The position numbers and the translations under genes are program-made. The notes beneath the pieces are model-generated. The model was not told where the DNA came from and did not search any database. It saw only the letters and a list, made by a program, of their open reading frames with translations. Of a stretch of 64,000 nt of DNA, positions 1 to 8,036 are shown piece after piece. How positions within the stretch are numbered: the stretch's first letter is position 1; each line of letters opens with the position of its first letter. The DNA comes from Clostridia bacterium (GTDB taxonomy: Bacteria > Bacillota > Clostridia > Lutisporales > Lutisporaceae). Where the stretch lies: NCBI GenBank assembly GCA_035628995.1, contig DASPIR010000034.1, positions 1 through 64,000 of the forward strand. The letters are read 5' to 3'.

Positions 1-413
1 GTGCCTAATAGCCAATCATAGCAACTCCAGCCAGCCGACATTGTTAATTCTTTTCCGCTATCAATCCAACGGTCGGCAACGGTAAAGGCAATATCTGTTT
101 CGGCAAGAGTTACTGCCACAATATAGTCCGAAATCATATAAAAATAAGCGCCTTCTATCCATCGGTTAAAATCTTCTTCTGCCATTTTCTTTGGCTCCGC
201 TATCATGCCCGCTAAATACATGGCATCATAATTTCCTGTTGCATAAAGCTGCTCTGCCAAAGGCTGGTTGTATTTTATTTTCTTAAAAATCGGCTTCATA
301 GCGCTTATGGTTACGCCAAAAATAGGCTCCTTAGCACCATTTCCCATGTAAATTTTTTTCGTACGTTCTGTACCAAGAGACCTTAGTTCGTCCATGATTT
401 CGTTTAATTCCAT
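1..413 (-). CDS. DNA alkylation repair protein, AlkD-like (partial, C-terminus off left edge)
   Basis: The reading frame starts at an ATG (413-411) behind a good ribosome site (AAGGAGAT) and stays open to the window edge, giving about 137 residues. The N-terminal residues (MELNEIMDELRSLG, then KIYMGNGAKEP and YATGNYDAMYLAGMIAEP) match the HEAT-repeat DNA alkylation repair family, which removes N3- and N7-alkylated purines without base flipping. The GNAT gene upstream on the same strand ends 72 bp before this start, so the two could share a transcript. The catalytic part of the family lies further along and is outside the window, so activity cannot be judged. Confidence 0.8.
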   Translation of the reverse strand, partial: MELNEIMDELRSLGTERTKKIYMGNGAKEPIFGVTISAMKPIFKKIKYNQPLAEQLYATGNYDAMYLAGMIAEPKKMAEEDFNRWIEGAYFYMISDYIVAVTLAETDIAFTVADRWIDSGKELTMSAGWSCYDWLLG

Positions 414-485
414 TTGTAATATCTCCTTAAAATATTATAGTAAAATTCGTAACTTGATAATATCTACGGCATCGCTTCTTAATAG

Positions 486-956
486 CTATTTATTAATATT
501 AAGCTTCAAACGCCAGTTATTGCATCGCATGTAACTCCCTAGCGGGTATTCAAATTCATGTTCTGAGATAAAATCAAAGCCCAGCTTCTGACAGATTGCA
601 TTAGAGGCAAGATTATTGATTGAAGGAAAAGCGTGAATATATTCATACTTGTTCTCGGCAGTTGCTGCGTCTATTGCTAACTTGGCGGCACCTGTAGCTA
701 TCCCTTTCCCCTGATATGAAGGTAGGACGCTCCACCCTATTTCGTATATACCTTCGCAATTCCAAACTTTTTCCCAATAACCAATACAGCCGACTTCCTT
801 CAAATCTGGATATAATATGATACTAAACATACATCCCTTATCGCCAAGCTCTAAATAACGTTTGTGACGACTCAAAACCTGTTCTTTGGTATCAGGTCCT
901 CCAAGATATTCCATCATCTCTGGTTCGTTAATAACTCGTTTAGGTGCCAGGTGCAA
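486..956 (-). CDS. GNAT-family N-acetyltransferase, N-terminally truncated by a repeat
   Basis: The body has the GNAT fold signature: a central strand (YEIGWSVLPSYQGKGIATGAAK, containing the acetyl-CoA pyrophosphate loop Q-G-K-G-I-A) and the late motif NNLASNAICQKLGF, typical of RimJ/RimL-like enzymes. The first residues (MHLAPK) are not native: they are read from the 87-bp repeat at 938-1024, with a TTG as the only nearby start. Relatives normally have some 15-20 further residues before the VNEPEMMEYLG segment, forming the first strand and helix. The gene has therefore probably lost its own start and promoter and may be inactive. Function is inferred from fold only; the acceptor substrate is unknown. 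Confidence 0.7.
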   Translation of the reverse strand: MHLAPKRVINEPEMMEYLGGPDTKEQVLSRHKRYLELGDKGCMFSIILYPDLKEVGCIGYWEKVWNCEGIYEIGWSVLPSYQGKGIATGAAKLAIDAATAENKYEYIHAFPSINNLASNAICQKLGFDFISEHEFEYPLGSYMRCNNWRLKLNINK

Positions 957-1024
957 AGGTTATTAGGTTACTGAAATCGATGATTGCAATAACCTAATAA
1001 CCTCGGAGGCTGGCACTTATCTAC
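938..1024 (-). repeat. 87-bp hairpin repeat, copy 1 (REP-like, GTAG foot)
   Basis: One of three nearly identical 87-bp copies (others at 3411-3497 and 5043-5129), all in the same orientation. Read on the minus strand it begins GTAGATAAGTGCCAGGC and ends CCTGGCACCTAAAC. It contains nested inverted repeats: outer GTGCCAGG/CCTGGCAC, inner AGGTTATTAGGTTA/TAACCTAATAACCT with a short loop. A GTAG foot followed by an imperfect palindrome is the hallmark of REP sequences mobilised by RAYT (Y1) transposases. This copy supplies the stop codon of the GrpB gene on one side and the TTG start of the truncated GNAT on the other. Confidence 0.85.
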
Positions 1025-1559
1025 TCTTTTCCTCTTTAGCTTTTTCCAGTATATTTTCTATAAAAGGATCTTTTTTTCTGGCATATCCATCTCTGTTATC
1101 AGCAAACTCACTTTCTAGACTTTCTTTTAAAATACTATATTCTTTTACTAATTCAAAATGATTATTTAGATAGTCTCTATACAAAATATGATTGGTCCAT
1201 AATTCCCCATCAATTGGCTCTACATGTACATAATGAGTTCTTAATTCTCCGTTACCTTTCTTAAAAAAATGCCTACCCGGTATTTTCCCATCTCCATCAT
1301 ATATATAGCCTATTTTCTCTAATACAGATATCAATTTTTCACCATATTCAAGTGATTCTACTCCTATTGCAATATCAATTATTGGCTTGGCTGAACATCC
1401 TATAATAGATGTACTTCCAACATGTTGTATATTTACATTATATTCTTTTAAAGCCGTTTCCAACCTTATCCATTCCTTTTCAAATTCGTTTTTCCATTCC
1501 GGATTATATTTTTCTATTCTCACGGTTCCGCTTTTCAAGCCTAACATAAAAACCTCCAT
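1017..1559 (-). CDS. GrpB-family (UPF0157) nucleotidyltransferase-fold protein
   Basis: About 180 residues, the normal size for the family. Recognisable features are an opening VRIEKYNPEWKNEF, the nucleotidyltransferase signature HVGSTS followed by AKPIIDIAIGV (Gly-Ser then Asp-x-Asp-type acidic region), and YVHVEPI. GrpB proteins have a nucleotidyltransferase fold and poorly defined cellular function. The final Arg codon and the TAA stop lie in the 87-bp repeat, so the last residue or two may differ from the ancestral protein. It lies downstream of the MFS gene on the same strand but is separated by about 260 bp. The start ATG at 1559 or the next Met (1545, MLGLKSG) are both possible; the AGGTTTTT upstream of the latter is weak. 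Confidence 0.8.
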   Translation of the reverse strand: MEVFMLGLKSGTVRIEKYNPEWKNEFEKEWIRLETALKEYNVNIQHVGSTSIIGCSAKPIIDIAIGVESLEYGEKLISVLEKIGYIYDGDGKIPGRHFFKKGNGELRTHYVHVEPIDGELWTNHILYRDYLNNHFELVKEYSILKESLESEFADNRDGYARKKDPFIENILEKAKEEKSR

Positions 1560-1821
1560 ATATCGTGGTAGTAAATTATATAAATACCCAACACTTAAAT
1601 AAATTCTGGGAACTTCCCATTATTAGCCTAATCAGAACAACTTGTCCATGATAATTGTATGGATAACTGGAAGCTCAGGTATTGCGTAACATAAGAATAT
1701 AACGTATTATTGATTCGGAGCTTTGCGAAGAACTTGGCAAAAATTAAGCCTTTTGTTTGGAACACATGAATTAAATACATATATTCACTTCATGTATCAT
1801 TATGTATATATGTATTTGGTG
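1560..1821. other. Intergenic region without a recognisable gene
   Basis: This A/T-rich stretch between the GrpB and MFS genes holds no convincing coding frame. A loose inverted repeat built on AATACATATA and TATATGTATT (about 1776-1818) lies just after the MFS stop codon and could act as its transcription end, but it has no clear T-run. Confidence 0.4.
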
Positions 1822-3087
1822 TTATCCTTGCAATTCCTCTTTTGGCTCTTCAACAGTTAGCTGAGTGGTTGATGAACTGCTCATATGTTTATTCATATAA
1901 CGCATCAGCACTGCCAATAGTAAACCCATCACAATCGCCAAAATCCAATGGGCGGTAAAAATATCACTTTTATCCTTCAAAACGCCCATGATAGGTAAAA
2001 TCAATGCAACAGTCAGATTGGAACATAGACTTTGGAAAGACAAGACCGTTGCCCTTTTATCCGATGGGATATATTTGTTCATATACTTGGATGTCACCGG
2101 ACGGTAAAATCCTTTTGCGAATTGCTGCAACAGAATGAACAAAACGCCGACCCATATATGGAGGGAAGCAATAAAAACATAGGATACAATCAGCAATCCG
2201 CCGAGAACACCGAGGGTTCTAGATTTTGTCCAGTTTATAAAATCGTGACTGCGCTTTGAGGCGTATGCAGCTGCAATGTTGAAAACAAAGAACGTGATGC
2301 CGAAATAGCTGACCGGTATATGTACCGCCTCCATATAAGGCTGGACGTACCAAAATCCGGCGCGATAAAAGGTGTAGAAAAGCATCGTAAATAAGATCAC
2401 AGATCGCAGTTTGGGATGCCGGACTGCATAAGATCCGCTCTCCCGAATCTGGTTAAAATAGGCACGCATTGGAGATGCAGACATGGTGAATGTAGGCATC
2501 TTGCTATCGCTAAGAGTTTCTTGCTCGCTTTCCACCCCGACTTGTTTTTCTTCAAAACACAGCGCGAAAAGCACCGACATCGCAATAAACCCTATAGAAA
2601 TAATTAAAGGCAGATGAATATTGATTTCGTAAGCAAAACCTGCAGTGATTGACCCAAAGGCTAGTGTATAAAGTGCGAATGACCGTGCCTTTCCCTCAAC
2701 CTTCAAATAACGGTCCTCTTGTTGGCGAAGTTTCAACGAGTCATATATCAGTGCACTATCCGCACCTGATTTGAATGCAGCGCCGAAACCGAAAAGCACC
2801 TCCGCGAAAGCAAAAACGGCAAACCGATTTCCGATAATGTAGATAAATAAGCTTATACAGCAAAGTATCCCGCCCAAAACCAAACACCATTTGCGACCCA
2901 ATTTATCTGCCAACGCACCAGTGGGGACCTCAAATGCGAAAATTGCAATGGCTAAAATTGAGTCGATCAGCAAGATTTCTGTAAACGATAGTCCTTTTGC
3001 CGTTAGGTAGAGTACGATAATCGGAGTTAAAATCACTAAATCAGCAAATGCAGAGTACCAGTAATAGATTTTTTCGTTTCTATGCAT
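1822..3087 (-). CDS. MFS transporter
   Basis: A 421-residue polytopic membrane protein with about 12 hydrophobic segments, the usual length for a major facilitator. The loop between helices 2 and 3 carries GALADKLGRKWCLVLGG, the MFS motif A, and a long charged cytoplasmic loop (around residues 185-220) separates the two six-helix halves. The opening NEKIYYWYSAFADLVILTPIIVLYL resembles the DHA1-like drug/unknown substrate exporters common in Firmicutes. Substrate cannot be assigned. The start ATG (3087) has GGGGGACAT upstream. No partner gene is adjacent. Confidence 0.85.
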   Translation of the reverse strand: MHRNEKIYYWYSAFADLVILTPIIVLYLTAKGLSFTEILLIDSILAIAIFAFEVPTGALADKLGRKWCLVLGGILCCISLFIYIIGNRFAVFAFAEVLFGFGAAFKSGADSALIYDSLKLRQQEDRYLKVEGKARSFALYTLAFGSITAGFAYEINIHLPLIISIGFIAMSVLFALCFEEKQVGVESEQETLSDSKMPTFTMSASPMRAYFNQIRESGSYAVRHPKLRSVILFTMLFYTFYRAGFWYVQPYMEAVHIPVSYFGITFFVFNIAAAYASKRSHDFINWTKSRTLGVLGGLLIVSYVFIASLHIWVGVLFILLQQFAKGFYRPVTSKYMNKYIPSDKRATVLSFQSLCSNLTVALILPIMGVLKDKSDIFTAHWILAIVMGLLLAVLMRYMNKHMSSSSTTQLTVEEPKEELQG

Positions 3088-3410
3088 ATGTCCCCCTCTT
3101 TCACGCGTTTTTTACTGATTTCTCATTTCAAATTTAATCATTCTCCACTTTTATTGATTACGGACTGATCAACATCATTATAGAGCATTTTAATCCAATT
3201 ATTATAATCATCATTTTATTATTTACTATATCTGCTGTCCAGCCTTTCACATAAACACTTTCCTTTGATTTCGCGTCTTACGCAATATTATACATTTCTG
3301 CCCTAAATAGCTATTTCAGTTGCCCCTTACCCGGAGTTTATGGATAATCCTGCTAATAAAAGTCAACCATAAATTTCAGAAAATATCAATATAAAAATGG
3401 GTATAGTAAT
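3088..3410. other. Intergenic region, no gene seen
   Basis: This A/T-rich 320-bp stretch lies upstream of the MFS gene and ends at repeat copy 2. No ORF with a ribosome site, no terminator hairpin and no riboswitch signature were found. It presumably contains the MFS promoter. Confidence 0.5.
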
Positions 3411-3497
3411 GTTTAGGTGCCAGGTGCAAAGGTTATTAGGTTACTGAAATCGATGAATACAATAACCTAATAACCTCGGAGCCTGGCACTTATCTAC
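3411..3497 (-). repeat. 87-bp hairpin repeat, copy 2
   Basis: Differs from copy 1 at only a few positions, all in the loop and the outer stem. It truncates the hypothetical gene to its right, to which it contributes the C-terminal residues VDKCQAPRLLGYC. Together with copy 3 it brackets the segment containing the PemK-like toxin gene as direct repeats. Confidence 0.85.
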
Positions 3498-3741
3498 TCC
3501 TGAAATATAGTCAGGGTAAAGAGAATAGACAGCTTCAAATTGTTTGAATGTTATTGTCCTCTGACCTGATAATCTAGCGCTATTAGTTTTTTCAGCAGCT
3601 TCGTCTACGATGATAGAATCATCGCCCCACCACGCAGTGAAATAGACAGGTGGTTTGCGAATCCTGGTAAATGAAGAAAATTCAGTTGGACTATTCCTAA
3701 GCTTCTCCAACAATAGATTTCAGGCTTGTCTGATTTCCATT
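3441..3741 (-). pseudogene. Broken hypothetical gene (internal TGA, 3' end replaced by repeat)
   Basis: An ATG at 3741 behind GGAGAAAG opens a frame MEIRQA that meets a TGA at codon 7, then continues as NLLLEKLRNSPTEFSSFTRI and SARLSGQRTITFKQFEAVY. The reading frame runs into the 87-bp repeat at 3497, which replaces the natural C-terminus with VDKCQAPRLLGYC. The good ribosome site on the far side of the stop suggests a once-functional gene that has acquired a nonsense codon and lost its 3' end. The protein family was not recognised. Confidence 0.5.
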
Positions 3742-4134
3742 TACTTTCTCCTTTGAATAAGTTGATTTTAAGAATGATGTACCAAAATTGTTGCTCAACA
3801 TTCAATAGCAGATAGTTTACTATTGATAATATTGTACCGCGTACACCGGATAAGAAGTTATTGCGAAATGATGCAAATATAACCACATAACCGCTGTGCC
3901 CGGTACATATTTTATAATCATAATCCTTCACGCGATGTGGCGGTCCTATACGCGCGATTTCAGATAACGTCTTTCCATTCACGACGTTTACCCCAAAGCC
4001 GAACCCCCAAAGAAAATGTCCGTCGAATGGATTGTTAGCCGACGTTCCCATAACGTTAGGTGATAGTGACACTATATGGATAATTGCACCATATGATATA
4101 CTATAAAGAAATAATATAAACTTTCCATAATATA
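3742..4134. other. Unassigned, probably degenerate region
   Basis: About 390 bp between the broken gene and the PemK-like promoter. A minus-strand frame is open through it, but it has no ribosome site, mixed composition and no recognisable motif. The 3830-4060 part is clearly richer in G/C than its surroundings, which suggests a remnant of different origin. No function can be given. Confidence 0.4.
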
Positions 4135-4154
4135 TTTCTAATTGTGTCAAAATA

Positions 4155-4163
4155 TGGTATAAT
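4155..4163 (+). promoter_or_regulatory. Extended -10 promoter of the PemK-like gene
   Basis: TGGTATAAT forms a TGn-extended consensus -10 hexamer (TATAAT at 4158-4163) with no good -35. Transcription would begin near 4170, giving a leader of about 22 nt that contains the ribosome site GGGAGGATAACG before the ATG at 4193. This fixes the start used for the gene. Confidence 0.6.
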
Positions 4164-4192
4164 TGGGACATGTATTTTGTGGGAGGATAACG

Positions 4193-4840
4193 ATGGATGC
4201 ATTAGACTTTAATAAAATTGACAAAATTGATGAAAAAAATAAAATATTAACTTCATTATCTGGTTTAGATAGAATTAAACTACTACAATCTCAAATTAAT
4301 TTAATATACAAATATTGGAATGATTCTATGATAAAAGTTAATGATAAAATTACTGCCAGTAATTCTGATTTATTTAATAAGTTATTATTTTATGACTTTG
4401 TTTTATCTCAAGCAATTTGGGCTAATAAAAAAATTGATTACCCTAAAGAAAGTCCAGACCAAATATTCCAATGGGGTATTTTAAATTGTGATTTAGGATA
4501 TAATATAGGGAGCGAACAAAATAAAAAAAGACCTGTAATTGTTTTAAATAATACCTTTTTTACTAGGTCTTCAATGATGATTGTTGCACCAATAACAGGA
4601 AGTGGTAAAAAAATATATAATCCAGAGGTTCAACTATATGAGACTTCTTATAGTAAAGTGACAGGTAAAATTGATTTGTCTCAAATGAGGTCTGTAAGTT
4701 CGGATAGATTTGATTTAAAAATAACTGATAAATTAATGAGCGAAGATGAATATAAAAGTAAATATAAAGATGGAAAATATACACCAATACAGGATATAAT
4801 AAGAAATAAACTTAAAAATATATTTGGTATTGTAATCTAA
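4193..4840 (+). CDS. MazF/PemK-like type II toxin with a long N-terminal extension
   Basis: The C-terminal part shows the MazF/PemK growth-inhibitor signature: GILNCDLGYNIGSEQNKKRP (the G-S-E-Q-x-K-x-R-P core), VIVLNN, then VAPITGSGKK and KIDLSQMRSVSSDRF, corresponding to the conserved strands and the Gln-x-Arg-x-x-Ser/Thr element of these ribosome-independent endoribonucleases. Residues 1-90 are an extra charged, helical region not present in the classic 110-residue toxins. No small antitoxin ORF is adjacent, so either the extension or a distant gene provides control, or it acts differently. The gene is much more A/T-rich than its neighbours, which points to horizontal acquisition, and it lies between two direct 87-bp repeat copies. 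Confidence 0.75.
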   Translation: MDALDFNKIDKIDEKNKILTSLSGLDRIKLLQSQINLIYKYWNDSMIKVNDKITASNSDLFNKLLFYDFVLSQAIWANKKIDYPKESPDQIFQWGILNCDLGYNIGSEQNKKRPVIVLNNTFFTRSSMMIVAPITGSGKKIYNPEVQLYETSYSKVTGKIDLSQMRSVSSDRFDLKITDKLMSEDEYKSKYKDGKYTPIQDIIRNKLKNIFGIVI

Positions 4841-4916
4841 ATACATGTATGTTATACTTTAGCTACAGTAGCGTGAGCTAACAATAAAGTATTTTAGGCA
4901 CATGAGTGCAAAATAG

Positions 4917-4952
4917 GAAAAGACTTCTGATTAATTTCAGGAGTCTTTTTCA
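4917..4952 (+). terminator. Rho-independent terminator after the PemK-like gene
   Basis: AAAGACTTCTGA and TCAGGAGTCTTTTT form a stem with one T-G wobble and a short loop, followed by a T-run on the plus strand, about 80 bp after the stop codon. Confidence 0.75.
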
Positions 4953-5042
4953 TTATCAAAAACCAAAAAACAATCATGAAAAATAAAAATTCCTCCAATG
5001 CCCTACCCTAAAATGATGTGGAGGCTGAGGGGAATACTGTGC

Positions 5043-5129
5043 GTTTAGGTGCCAGGTGCAAAGGTTATTAGGTTACTGAAATCGATGATTACAATAACCT
5101 AATAACCTCGGAGCCTGGCACTTATCTAC
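5043..5129 (-). repeat. 87-bp hairpin repeat, copy 3
   Basis: Same length and orientation as copies 1 and 2. It cuts off the DUF6602-like gene on its right and supplies that gene's last residues (VDKCQAPRLLGYC). The flanking bases differ completely from those of the other copies, so the 87-bp unit is well delimited. Confidence 0.85.
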
Positions 5130-5224
5130 ATAATGCGGATTATCTTTTTTTATTTCTTCAAAGTCATAACGCAGTTGCTTGCCTGCTTCAATGAATAAGT
5201 TTAATATCTTTTCATTCTTCTCCA
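5073..5224 (-). pseudogene. Truncated DUF6602-like gene fragment
   Basis: From an ATG at 5224 (GTGAGG upstream) the frame reads MEKNEKILNLFIEAGKQLRY and then FEEIKKDNPHY before entering the 87-bp repeat. This resembles the first 30-odd residues of DUF6602 proteins, where the segment continues with a conserved Gly-Glu-x-Gly region and a nuclease-like core. Everything after that is missing. Assignment is from memory of the family opening and is tentative; that the gene is truncated is clear because the repeat supplies its end. Confidence 0.45.
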
Positions 5225-5279
5225 TAATTAACCTCACAAATAATTTGGTATTCCCTATAATCGGTAAATTCATCTGCAG

Positions 5280-5670
5280 CTTCCCATTATAGACACAATT
5301 ACACTTCTATCAGCAAATACGTAACATATTCCCAGATATTTTTACCCCAGATAGTCAGGCCATTAAATACCGCCAGTTTTATCTGTAACTCTGCATAGAT
5401 CCTACACTAAATGGTAATATTGCCTGACTCTAAACTATAGCTATATATCTAAACTAAATTCGAAATGCTCTTAGCGTAGCATAATACCCCTACTATTAAT
5501 TTATAGAGTTCAATTGGTGCCTTTCAAAATCCTCCTGTACATCCATTAAGTCCCTGATAATTCGACCGCATTATTCGACTTATTTCGCAATTTACTAATC
5601 ATCTAATCATTTACCTTCATATTACGGTTCTATGAATTCTCCTACATAGCTTTAATTTGAGTAAGGGCAT
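5280..5670. other. Degenerate intergenic stretch
   Basis: No intact gene. A short minus-strand remnant around 5505-5570 reads IIRDLMDVQEDFERHQLNSI followed by a stop, which has protein-like composition but no ribosome site and no upstream continuation. It is probably the tail of a lost gene. Confidence 0.35.
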
Positions 5671-5715
5671 AAAAAGAGAACCTAATCGTCAATTGACAAT
5701 GAGGTTCTCTTTTTA
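5671..5715 (-). terminator. Strong terminator of the small Cys-cluster gene
   Basis: AAAAAGAGAACCT and AGGTTCTCTTTTT pair perfectly around a loop that itself contains TCAATTGA. It directly follows the stop codon at 5718 and would work in both directions. Confidence 0.85.
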
Positions 5716-5717
5716 TG

Positions 5718-5975
5718 TTACTCTCTTGGGTATGTCTCGGAAGCATTATGTAAGGCTTGAAGTGCTTGCTCTGCAGGCATTTTTGCAATTGTTGCTGCGC
5801 ACTTGTTACAAAGGGTTTTCCCTTTGCCTTTAAAAACGTCTCTGCTTCTTAAGTCACGACAAGGGTTATTGAATATTGGCACATTACATAATTCACATCG
5901 TTGATGCTGCTCATATAGACCATGCCCTTTTTCGCTGCTTTGATCATTCATACTCCTTAGCTTTACGAGCTTCAT
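5718..5975 (-). CDS. Small Cys-cluster (zinc-ribbon-like) protein
   Basis: An 85-residue soluble protein. It has two cysteine pairs, CELC near residue 27 and CNKC near residue 57, plus a single Cys in NNPCRDL, an arrangement that would bind zinc or an Fe-S cluster. No known family was recognised. The ATG at 5975 has GGAAGTG at proper distance; a second Met (MNDQSS) has its AAGGAG too close. It has its own terminator and lies at the edge of the metal-homeostasis cluster, but its link to it is only positional. Confidence 0.6.
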   Translation of the reverse strand: MKLVKLRSMNDQSSEKGHGLYEQHQRCELCNVPIFNNPCRDLRSRDVFKGKGKTLCNKCAATIAKMPAEQALQALHNASETYPRE

Positions 5976-6065
5976 TGTTTCACTTCCTTATTGGTTTGTT
6001 ATTATTTTGCCCAAATTCTTATTTACTAATATCTATATCCAATAGATGCACAAAGTACTGCAATC

Positions 6066-6108
6066 AAAAGAGAACCTGCATGCCCAAGGGACAATAAGGT
6101 TCTCCTTT
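6066..6108 (-). terminator. Terminator of the duplicated-domain lipoprotein gene
   Basis: AAAAGAGAACCT pairs with AGGTTCTCCTTT around an 18-nt loop containing GCATGCCC, 35 bp beyond the stop codon. Its arms share the sequence GAGAACCT/AGGTTCTC with the terminator at 5671. Confidence 0.75.
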
Positions 6109-6143
6109 ATCTAATAAGCTTATGTTTTAGTTCTTCGAATCAG

Positions 6144-6824
6144 TTACTTCAAATCAAAAGGCTTTAATAACTTGTCAACTTCAATATCCTTGCCGTTATC
6201 ATCCTTGACTGGGACCTTTGCGAATACCCAGCCTTCCACTTTAGCAGGGTCAACGCCTGCATCGATAAATGGCTGTGGGTTCAATACGAATACGATGTCC
6301 TTATCATTGGTATTCATGTCCTTTGCCCATTCAAACATATTGCCGTTGCCCAATGCGACACCATAGTGGTCAAGCTTTTCATGGTAACCAATACTGTCTC
6401 GGTGTGTTTCTACGATTTTCTTGAAGGAATCCAAAGGTTTCGCTTCTCCGCTATAAGTAAACTTTTCATTGCCTAACTCAGAGTGAACCATTAGTTTATC
6501 CATATCGCTGACATATAAATAAGTCTCTTTTGGCAGCTTATTTACGTCCAACCCCGCATTAATAAAAGGTTTTGCATCAAACTCGAGCATAATATCAGGT
6601 GCACCTTCTTTGCTGAAGTCCTTCCCCCATATGAATCTTTCACCGGTTGGGGAAGTTAATGCCCATCCATTATTTACTTCGTCAGAAGCTATTTTGTCAG
6701 GAATTTTATTTAATACTGCTTCAAAGGATGTTACTGCAACTTTGCCCACTACATCTGTTGCTTGGCATGCTGCCAGGGATGCTGCCAACGATAAAACCAA
6801 AACAATAACTATTATTCTTTTCAT
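6144..6824 (-). CDS. Secreted lipoprotein with a duplicated domain, in the metal cluster
   Basis: Starting at MKRIIVIVLVLSL the protein has a signal peptide and a lipobox LAAC, so it is anchored on the outer face of the membrane. The mature part is an internal duplication: GWALTSPTGERFIWGKDF with FDAKPFINAGLDVNKLP recurs about 100 residues later as YGVALGNGNMFEWAKDM with LNPQPFIDAGVDPAKV. No Cys or Met cluster is visible. The family was not recognised. Its promoter carries the tandem 11-bp-spaced box and the C-rich motif shared with copA, which suggests coregulation with copper export. A longer start at 6848 is possible but the 6824 start gives a canonical signal peptide. Confidence 0.7.
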   Translation of the reverse strand: MKRIIVIVLVLSLAASLAACQATDVVGKVAVTSFEAVLNKIPDKIASDEVNNGWALTSPTGERFIWGKDFSKEGAPDIMLEFDAKPFINAGLDVNKLPKETYLYVSDMDKLMVHSELGNEKFTYSGEAKPLDSFKKIVETHRDSIGYHEKLDHYGVALGNGNMFEWAKDMNTNDKDIVFVLNPQPFIDAGVDPAKVEGWVFAKVPVKDDNGKDIEVDKLLKPFDLK

Positions 6825-6852
6825 ATTCACTAACCTACTTTCTTTCATAATT

Positions 6853-6868
6853 ACTTTACCCCCCTACC
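6853..6868 (-). promoter_or_regulatory. C-rich motif, candidate CsoR-type operator (lipoprotein gene)
   Basis: ACTTTACCCCCCTACC (plus-strand reading) is identical to the motif at 14644-14659 in front of copA. Both begin 11-13 bp beyond the proposed -10, that is around the transcription start. CsoR operators are typically TACCC-rich/GGGTA-rich sites in such positions. Identification as a CsoR site is inference. Confidence 0.5.
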
Positions 6869-6881
6869 GTACATATATATT

Positions 6882-6916
6882 AATATAAACATTTATTATG
6901 AAGATTTAATGGAGAT
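6882..6916 (-). promoter_or_regulatory. Promoter with tandem 11-bp boxes (lipoprotein gene)
   Basis: On the minus strand ATCTCCAT (6909-6916) is followed exactly 11 bp later by ATCTTCAT (6898-6905), then a 10-bp gap and a -10 TATATT (6882-6887). No -35 hexamer is present at the expected place; the boxes occupy it. This matches the layout at copA, larE and three other genes here and is typical of OmpR/PhoB-family activator sites. Confidence 0.6.
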
Positions 6917-7002
6917 TTTGACTTTCCCGATATATATTTCTTCTAATAGTATTATTGCCAGAGGAAGTATGACATACTACTTTCCATCTGCTAAAACAAG
7001 CA

Positions 7003-7031
7003 AAGAAGGCTCAAATGCTTGAGCCTTCTTC
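7003..7031 (-). terminator. Terminator of the DUF2680 gene
   Basis: GAAGGCTCAA and TTGAGCCTTC pair perfectly around a 4-nt loop, with A/T-rich flanks on both sides, some 50 bp past the stop codon at 7079. Confidence 0.8.
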
Positions 7032-7078
7032 AATATAAAAACCATCTAAAAAAGAGAGGGTATTAGATGTGATGTTAG

Positions 7079-7477
7079 TTATTGAACAGCGTAATTAAAA
7101 CCATTCATCATGTTGTAGCCAGAGCCTCCGCCCATCATTCCACTGCCAAATCCAAATCCAAATCCGGTGTTATTGCTGGTTTTGCTGTTATTGAAGCTTC
7201 CGCCTCCACAGCCGCCGAACCCTCCAGTCATCATACCATTCGGGAAACCGTTTTCTGTATGGAACTTTTCCATTTGGTCGATATTGTCTTTATATAGTTT
7301 TGCCTGATCCTGAGTTATGGAGCCATCCTTCGCAGCTTGGTCAACCTGTGTCTTTCTCGCTGATATCATATCCTTAAACCACTGCGGCACATTTGCATTG
7401 TCAGCCGCGAAGACAACGGTTGCAAGCATAAGAGAGATGATGCTCATTATTGTAACAATCGTAATTATTCTTTTCAT
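7079..7477 (-). CDS. DUF2680-type secreted protein with Gly/Met-rich tail
   Basis: A 132-residue exported protein: signal peptide to about residue 24 (ending VVFA-AD), then the DUF2680-like core VPQWFKDMISARKTQVDQAA, ITQDQAKLYKDNIDQMEKF and HTENGFPNGM. The C-terminal 45 residues are low-complexity Gly/Asn/Phe/Met with MMGGG and YNMMNGF patches and one Cys. Met-rich extracytoplasmic tails often bind Cu(I), which fits the setting, but copper binding is not shown. RBS GAAGGAGGAATTTG supports the ATG at 7477. Its promoter shows the tandem-box layout of the cluster. Confidence 0.7.
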   Translation of the reverse strand: MKRIITIVTIMSIISLMLATVVFAADNANVPQWFKDMISARKTQVDQAAKDGSITQDQAKLYKDNIDQMEKFHTENGFPNGMMTGGFGGCGGGSFNNSKTSNNTGFGFGFGSGMMGGGSGYNMMNGFNYAVQ

Positions 7478-7509
7478 TCAAATTCCTCCTTCAATTTTTC
7501 CATATTTTT

Positions 7510-7543
7510 ATAATAACAGGGTTTTGTGAAGAAAATATGAAGT
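7510..7543 (-). promoter_or_regulatory. Promoter with tandem 11-bp boxes (DUF2680 gene)
   Basis: ACTTCATA (7536-7543) and TCTTCACA (7525-7532) on the minus strand are 11 bp apart, with a -10-like TATTAT at 7510-7515, nine bases downstream. The boxes overlap the stop codon of the LDCC mini-protein gene, so this gene can be expressed separately from it. Confidence 0.5.
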
Positions 7544-7546
7544 TTC

Positions 7547-7672
7547 TTACTTGCTAGTTTTGTTTGGTCGGTCCAATTTACAACAGTCCAGCTTTTCATT
7601 ACCAAACTGCTCTTGATTTTGTTTTGCCAGTTTTTTTAAAAAATTGTCAATCATTTTCTTAAAACTTATCAT
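7547..7672 (-). CDS. LDCC-motif putative metal-binding mini-protein (41 aa)
   Basis: A 41-residue ORF with a strong ribosome site (GAGGAGGTTGAGATT before the ATG at 7672). It reads MISFKKMIDNFLKKLAKQNQ, then EQFGNEKLDCCKLDRPNKTS. The vicinal cysteines in LDCC define a known clostridial class of small putative metal-binding proteins. An amphipathic N-terminal helix precedes the Cys pair. It is 55 bp downstream of the His/Cys-rich membrane protein gene and probably in the same transcript. Likely a copper or zinc chaperone or buffer, by context only. Confidence 0.75.
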   Translation of the reverse strand: MISFKKMIDNFLKKLAKQNQEQFGNEKLDCCKLDRPNKTSK

Positions 7673-7727
7673 AATCTCAACCTCCTCTTATCCCATCATT
7701 AGCCTTATGAATATCCTCATCATTATA

Positions 7728-8036
7728 TTATTCTGCAGGTTTATTTAATTCAAGTGGCTTAGTATCATCTTGATTCTCATTTTTATCATCACAACAATTT
7801 CCTTTTTTGTTGCCCCCCAACATCATTGGCAACATTGAAATCATCAATATCGGACATAAAAATGGCGCTATCTTTCCTAGTATTCCACCAGCCGCAGGAC
7901 TATACCTTGTTATTAGTGGCAAAGATCCAATAATAATTATAGGTAATCCACAACAGAGAGCCATGTGCAGCATATGCTTTAATGCACTATGTTTATGCGA
8001 TCCTTGCTCACCTTTGTTATCTCCATGACAATTCAT
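7728..8036 (-). CDS. Small His/Cys-rich two-helix membrane protein
   Basis: A 102-residue protein. The N-terminus is rich in potential metal ligands (MNCHGDNKG, then HKHSALKHMLHMALCC), followed by two hydrophobic helices with a conserved-looking ALCCGLPIIIIGSLP and FLCPILMISMLPMM, and a tail with NCCDDKNENQDD. Such proteins occur in clostridial copper loci; the His/Met/Cys content suggests copper binding at the membrane. RBS GGAGGGTTAAGT supports ATG 8036. It is divergent from the HMA-TauE-cupredoxin gene across 172 bp. Confidence 0.65.
   Translation of the reverse strand: MNCHGDNKGEQGSHKHSALKHMLHMALCCGLPIIIIGSLPLITRYSPAAGGILGKIAPFLCPILMISMLPMMLGGNKKGNCCDDKNENQDDTKPLELNKPAE

Follow-up and report, generated by a model that had tools for sequence, protein, structure and literature searches.

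The window, the whole 64,000-nucleotide stretch of DNA analysed here, carries near its start three copies of a short repeat set among genes, gene fragments and cassette remnants. Below, the genome to which it belongs is called the home genome (G000), contigs given by C and a number alone are from that genome, and the other G numbers denote related genomes. The features concerned are as follows.

486..933, reverse strand: GNAT acetyltransferase gene without its first 28 codons (94% DNA identity to a complete G008 gene; broken off 5 bp from copy 1)
937..1024, reverse strand: element copy 1 (putative TIR-dimer, MITE-like), GTAG end towards GrpB and opposite end towards GNAT
1017..1559, reverse strand: GrpB-family gene with a complete domain, its TAA stop inside copy 1
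3410..3497, reverse strand: element copy 2 (putative TIR-dimer, MITE-like)
3498..3740, reverse strand: hypothetical ORF, a putative fragment running into copy 2, with the tail VDKCQAPRLLGYC
3957..4134, forward strand: attC-like/cassette-leader remnant, 83% similar to C24
4163..4840, forward strand: PemK/MazF-like toxin-domain gene, between copies 2 and 3
4969..5039, forward strand: gene-cassette 3' end halting at copy 3, seen twice on C24
5042..5129, reverse strand: element copy 3 (putative TIR-dimer, MITE-like)
5130..5295, reverse strand: gene fragment (98%) joined to copy 3; intact gene at C33:94660-95895

The three repeats and the genes beside them

A repeat search of the window bore out the preliminary description of three 87-bp copies in one orientation. 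The copies are about 87-88 bp long (88 bp as placed above), 95-98% identical and lie within 4.2 kb, and their flanks are mutually unrelated. The two arms of the element, 38 bp each, are about 80% complementary, and as single-stranded DNA each window copy is predicted to form a single long hairpin with a minimum free energy of -21 to -23.5 kcal/mol (z about -7 to -8 relative to shuffled sequences). The preliminary description had the ORFs next to copies 2 and 3 gaining the same residues; they do share the identical tail VDKCQAPRLLGYC, which is encoded by the element. Searches of Rfam (with window positions 1-8000) and of plasmid and phage collections returned no match.

The loss of the GNAT N-terminus at copy 1 is confirmed by the intact counterpart in G008, which encodes 176 aa and to which the 94% DNA identity extends over 486-933. 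This level of identity, to a gene on G008:C9, is reached across genera of the family, and in both genomes the DNA is unrelated from the stop codon onward; the gene-sized piece may have been acquired by recent horizontal transfer. For the hypothetical ORF at copy 2, the 22 genomes of the family that were searched gave no homologue, and its truncation is therefore only putative.

To the left of copy 3, the cassette 3' end stops 2-6 bp short of the element; on C24 it is followed by an attC-like site, which is missing beside copy 3. To the right, 5130-5288 or 5295 (159-166 bp) duplicates, at 98% identity, the first part of a C33 gene that encodes 411 aa, and the far end of this fragment passes, at a shared ATAGACA (5289-5295), into native sequence that can be recognised in G004. 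Since the gene is intact elsewhere in the same genome, it was copied and not truncated in place, and the C-terminal truncation of a DUF6602-like gene claimed at this site has to be rejected.

Related to the cassette remnants at 3957-4134 and 4969-5039 are attC-like arrays in the home genome (G000:C9:1-19000, C3:1-9000 and C24). Their sites are about 200-230 bp long (CTAAC...CACG // CGTGAGTGC...GTTAG), are spaced 0.7-1.7 kb apart in one orientation per array, and accompany genes of cassette type (GNAT, NUDIX, hydrolase, nitroreductase). The arrays appear to form a chromosomal-integron-like system, which G008, G003, G004, G005 and G006 also have; a search for IntI gave no recombinase over the cut-off of TIGR02249 (integron-integrase). 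Window positions 1-468 and G000:C18:6641-7107 are paralogous segments with 90% identity, and the 7.5-kb C18 contig also holds an element copy and a cassette leader like window 4081-4190. Another pair of inverted repeats, AAGAGAACCT...AGGTTCTCTTTT, at window positions 5668-5717 and 6068-6115, is found at the same locus in G004; these are probably terminators or another small repeat.

Matching ends on Y1 transposase units of relatives

A search of relatives revealed inverted half-elements that bracket transposase genes. In G021:C12 (RAYT A) a 278-aa transposase gene lies between GATAAGTGCCAGGTATAAAGGTTATTAGGTTATTG and TAACCTAATAACCTTTGTACCTGGCACCTAA, ends to which the halves of window copy 3 are identical at 30/35 and 30/31 positions, and the same layout, again with matching element ends, is found at G006:C55. 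Because its halves match the ends of such a unit, the 87-bp repeat appears to be the transposase unit minus its gene, end joined to end. The cognate-type transposases match Y1_Tnp (PF01797, 45-48 bits, cut-off 23) and score 71-75 bits against NF047646 (REP-associated tyrosine transposase), just under the cut-off of 80. For the C-terminal extension of the 278-aa protein, Sigma70_r4 (E 0.01) and Bac_DnaA_C (E 0.04) both fell below their cut-offs, and there is no more than a hint of the HTH extension that characterises subclass 2.1. The correspondence of the ends lends good support to what the preliminary description had proposed, namely that a RAYT-type Y1 transposase mobilises the element.

Further transposase units of this group are present at several sites in G021, G020 and G005, where their ends are related to these but differ from them. 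Their occurrence at several sites suggests that the units themselves transpose, unlike the usual single-copy RAYTs. Units of about 930-960 bp with >90% DNA identity were seen at different sites (G021:C12:389391, G021:C12:397357, G021:C13:49251 and G020:C55).

No cognate transposase was found in the home assembly, a draft that is 99% complete. Its full RAYT (C8:73628-74392) is 33% identical to the cognate type and has different ends (GGGGACAGGTACC), which rules it out as the mobiliser and leaves the window copies with no visible partner transposase in that assembly. Thus the Y1 gene sought for this repeat was located in relatives, whereas the home genome offered a RAYT of a different type only. 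In the region of the home RAYT (G000:C8:73500-74420) the RAYT start is partly duplicated in tandem, and the TIRs are of the other type (GGGGACAGGTACCTTGTCCC), fitting the GGGGWSAS TIRYT motif.

We also considered the initial proposal that the repeats are GTAG-footed REP sequences with nested inverted repeats. One strong long hairpin is present, but the rest of this structure did not hold: GTAG occurs in all three window copies, yet the foot reads TTAG in the C18 copy and ATAG in the C16 copy and is variable in relatives, and the half-elements alone fold no better than shuffles (0 to -1.4 kcal/mol), with no small hairpin per half. A canonical GTAG REP or REPIN of a domesticated RAYT could appeal to the GTAG at one end of the window copies, to the hairpin and to the NF047646 match of the relatives' Y1 transposase; set against the unconserved foot, the unfolded halves and transposase units that are multi-copy and TIR-flanked, it is scarcely credible, and we reject it. 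The description of TIRYTs or TIRtrons fits better: these are RAYT-like genes flanked by long terminal inverted repeats and not by GTAG REPs (PMC3733652; subclass 2.1, PMC6006769), and their TIRs can form moderately abundant repeat families, some of them as dimers (PMC3733652).

Junctions beside the element

The home genome holds about 13 copies of the element, 6 well preserved and about 7 diverged or partial; the well-preserved copies outside the window are at C18:4666, C16:7316 and C8:79107. A recognisable broken feature lies beside 6 of the approximately 13, counting copy 2, where the break is putative. Outside the window, the C16 copy is joined to half of an attC-like site, the copy at C8:79107 adjoins a 117-bp C-terminal RAYT fragment whose intact gene is 5 kb away, and at the C27 copy an FMN-reductase fragment (Pfam positions 74-137 of 198) ends at the element. 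On C18, C26, C29 and C15, and at C8:29491 and C8:40364, the copies are bordered by genes that seem intact, while the case of C8:49345 is ambiguous. The C26 copy is old and also occurs in G012, a genome of another genus. The association with breaks is therefore not general to all copies, but covers young copies and transposase units. The preliminary description had placed each copy at a truncation and named a majority in intact intergenic regions as the contrary outcome; what we found lies between the two: intact intergenic DNA surrounds roughly half of the home copies, most of them old or partial.

Similar junctions are found in relatives. The unit called RAYT 1 in G021 lies 4 bp past the position at which a DegV gene and its G020 orthologue diverge, and the element supplies the DegV stop codon; to the right of the unit is a fragment of an IS3-like transposase, and a search of G021 (96% complete) did not find the native right flank. 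Next to RAYT A is a second, truncated copy, 82 codons short, of a DUF4367-domain gene whose intact version lies 3 kb away; measured against G014, the two flanks of RAYT A retain their order, but 1,374 bp are absent. An element on G004:C145 adjoins a HicB gene without its start, hicA being missing, and one on G012:C150 adjoins a tmRNA gene without about 65 nt of its 5' end. Further homology breaks lie 1 bp (G005:C74), 10 bp (G005:C276) and 4 and 30 bp (G006:C55) from the element, and the broken features include IS3 and IS4 fragments.

These junctions were scored by comparing the 80 bp beside the element with a comparator, and the 80 bp beyond the element with the comparator's continuation. Scoring was limited to copies with a homologous flank: 17 comparisons in all, covering 11 element copies with 13 junctions, from six genomes (the home genome, G021, G005, G004, G012 and G006). 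Several of the scored flanks are multi-copy sequences, and the junctions are not fully independent, as some of them share one element. Near flanks matched with z of 16-36, whereas far flanks gave z of -1.3 to 1.9 against the continuation. Homology to the relative or paralogue breaks within about 10 bp of the element at 12 of the 13 junctions (30 bp at the other) and never resumes past it (13/13), the comparators being other species or paralogues of about 73-99% identity and not sister strains. When 12 flank pairs with the element removed were searched as composites against 22 genomes, only one-sided matches were obtained and none across the flank junction; no clean empty site was therefore found at the 13 informative junctions with these comparators. 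The gaps between the near-identical G021 and G020 genomes likewise contained no clean element insertion, and the native break points displayed no consistent motif or microhomology. Y1 (HUH) transposases of the IS200/IS605 type insert a single strand cleanly and keep the target DNA; the junctions here do not show such clean insertion.

It is conceivable, but rather improbable, that elements and breaks have no causal link and that the elements merely persist in dispensable, already scrambled DNA such as integron-like cassettes, IS graveyards and duplicated genes. The window start, C16, C18 and C24 are indeed cassette-like regions with attC-like sites, and flanks are often IS fragments or duplicates. 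However, homology breaks at the element itself, at no more than about 10 bp in 12/13 junctions, and does so beside core-type genes (DegV, tmRNA) as well. Assembly artefact, in which short-read assembly would have used the repeated element to link contigs that do not belong together, we judge very unlikely. Repeats of 87-950 bp are typical points of mis-joining, and all of the genomes are drafts, several highly fragmented; but all 13 junctions, from six genomes, show the pattern, the copy-3 fragment has a far end at 5289 where there is no repeat, and both flanks of RAYT A keep the relative's order.

Homologous recombination deserves more weight, although we still consider it unlikely. Here an element would have inserted cleanly into a gene, and deletion, inversion or exchange between copies in the same orientation would then have left one copy with unrelated flanks. 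In its favour are the three near-identical, same-orientation copies within 4.2 kb, and the expected far half is missing at every informative junction. Against it, no copy was recognised that separates the two halves of a single gene; searches beside other home copies did not turn up the GNAT N-terminus, the body of the C33 gene or the RAYT body; and G021 yielded no native right flank for RAYT 1. Nor does recombination predict tiny two-ended fragments such as the 117 bp of RAYT and the 159-166 bp of the C33 gene. These searches thus lent no support to recombination between copies, one of the two routes offered in the preliminary description. We favour imprecise insertion, with recombination behind it and misassembly less likely.

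A proposed mechanism and comparison with known systems

The reading that we prefer, at somewhat better than even confidence, is that the repeats are non-autonomous TIR-dimer miniatures of a Y1 transposon, whose insertion or its aftermath often removes or replaces adjacent DNA. The parent transposon would consist of one RAYT/TIRYT-type Y1 (HUH) gene between TIRs of about 31-35 bp (AAGTGCCAGG...AGGTTATTAGGTTA / TAACCTAATAACCT...CCTGGCACCTAA). In the 87-bp form the two ends would abut, so that the single strand folds into one long hairpin, and this miniature would presumably have been mobilised in trans by a transposase of the type that relatives retain. Insertion itself, or the processing that follows shortly, would often delete or replace adjoining DNA, either by adjacent deletion or by template-switch or end-joining repair at a break, which may be made at the hairpin or by the transposase (off-target cleavage). 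The element would thus end up with a truncated gene on one side and, on the other, filler DNA that is unrelated or copied. Long hairpins provoke SbcCD cleavage and deletions, according to work cited in PMC3733652.

Insertion with loss of adjacent DNA, the other route first suggested, is supported by two cases, the 1.37 kb missing at RAYT A and the native right flank of RAYT 1 that was not found. At copy 3, however, a fragment copied from elsewhere is needed, and the copied fragments at copy 3, on the left flank of RAYT A and at C8:79107 are not explained by simple deletion. With the present comparators, deletion at insertion would look the same as deletion afterwards. More broadly, and only tentatively, RAYT/TIRYT transposons and their miniatures in this family might not insert cleanly; they might enter at breaks, or create them, with repair that loses adjacent DNA and adds short templated filler, and so act as generators of truncations and chimeric junctions.

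To our knowledge, RAYT-type movement and its effect on the target have hardly ever been observed directly. The main point of interest is the systematic absence of clean insertion sites. Intact units, miniatures and many junctions coexist in related genomes, so clean insertion and a delete-and-patch mode can be tested against each other; if the latter is true, small hairpin repeats are a direct source of broken genes.

Like the MITEs of IS elements, the repeats are non-coding and have ends matching those of an autonomous unit; unlike them, they belong with a Y1 (HUH) rather than a DDE transposase, and target-site duplication was not seen. With REPINs (PMC3116915) they share two inverted ends and a short spacer forming one hairpin, and presumed movement in trans by a RAYT. 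They differ in having no conserved GTAG, no hairpin per half, a low copy number and a home genome without the cognate transposase; REPINs are described as extragenic (PMC3116915). The closest likeness is to TIRYTs or TIRtrons, where a Y1 transposase gene lies between TIRs and TIR repeats, some of them dimers, occur elsewhere (PMC3733652; PMC6006769). In the portions of these two papers drawn on here, no association with chimeric junctions is mentioned, and set beside their accounts the units here differ in being several per genome and in having ends (AAGTGCCAGG...) other than the common, non-universal GGGGWSAS motif, for which the home C8 RAYT has GGGGACAG. Judged by their sequence, the repeats appear to be a new member of this described kind, a TIRYT-type TIR dimer that is MITE-like.
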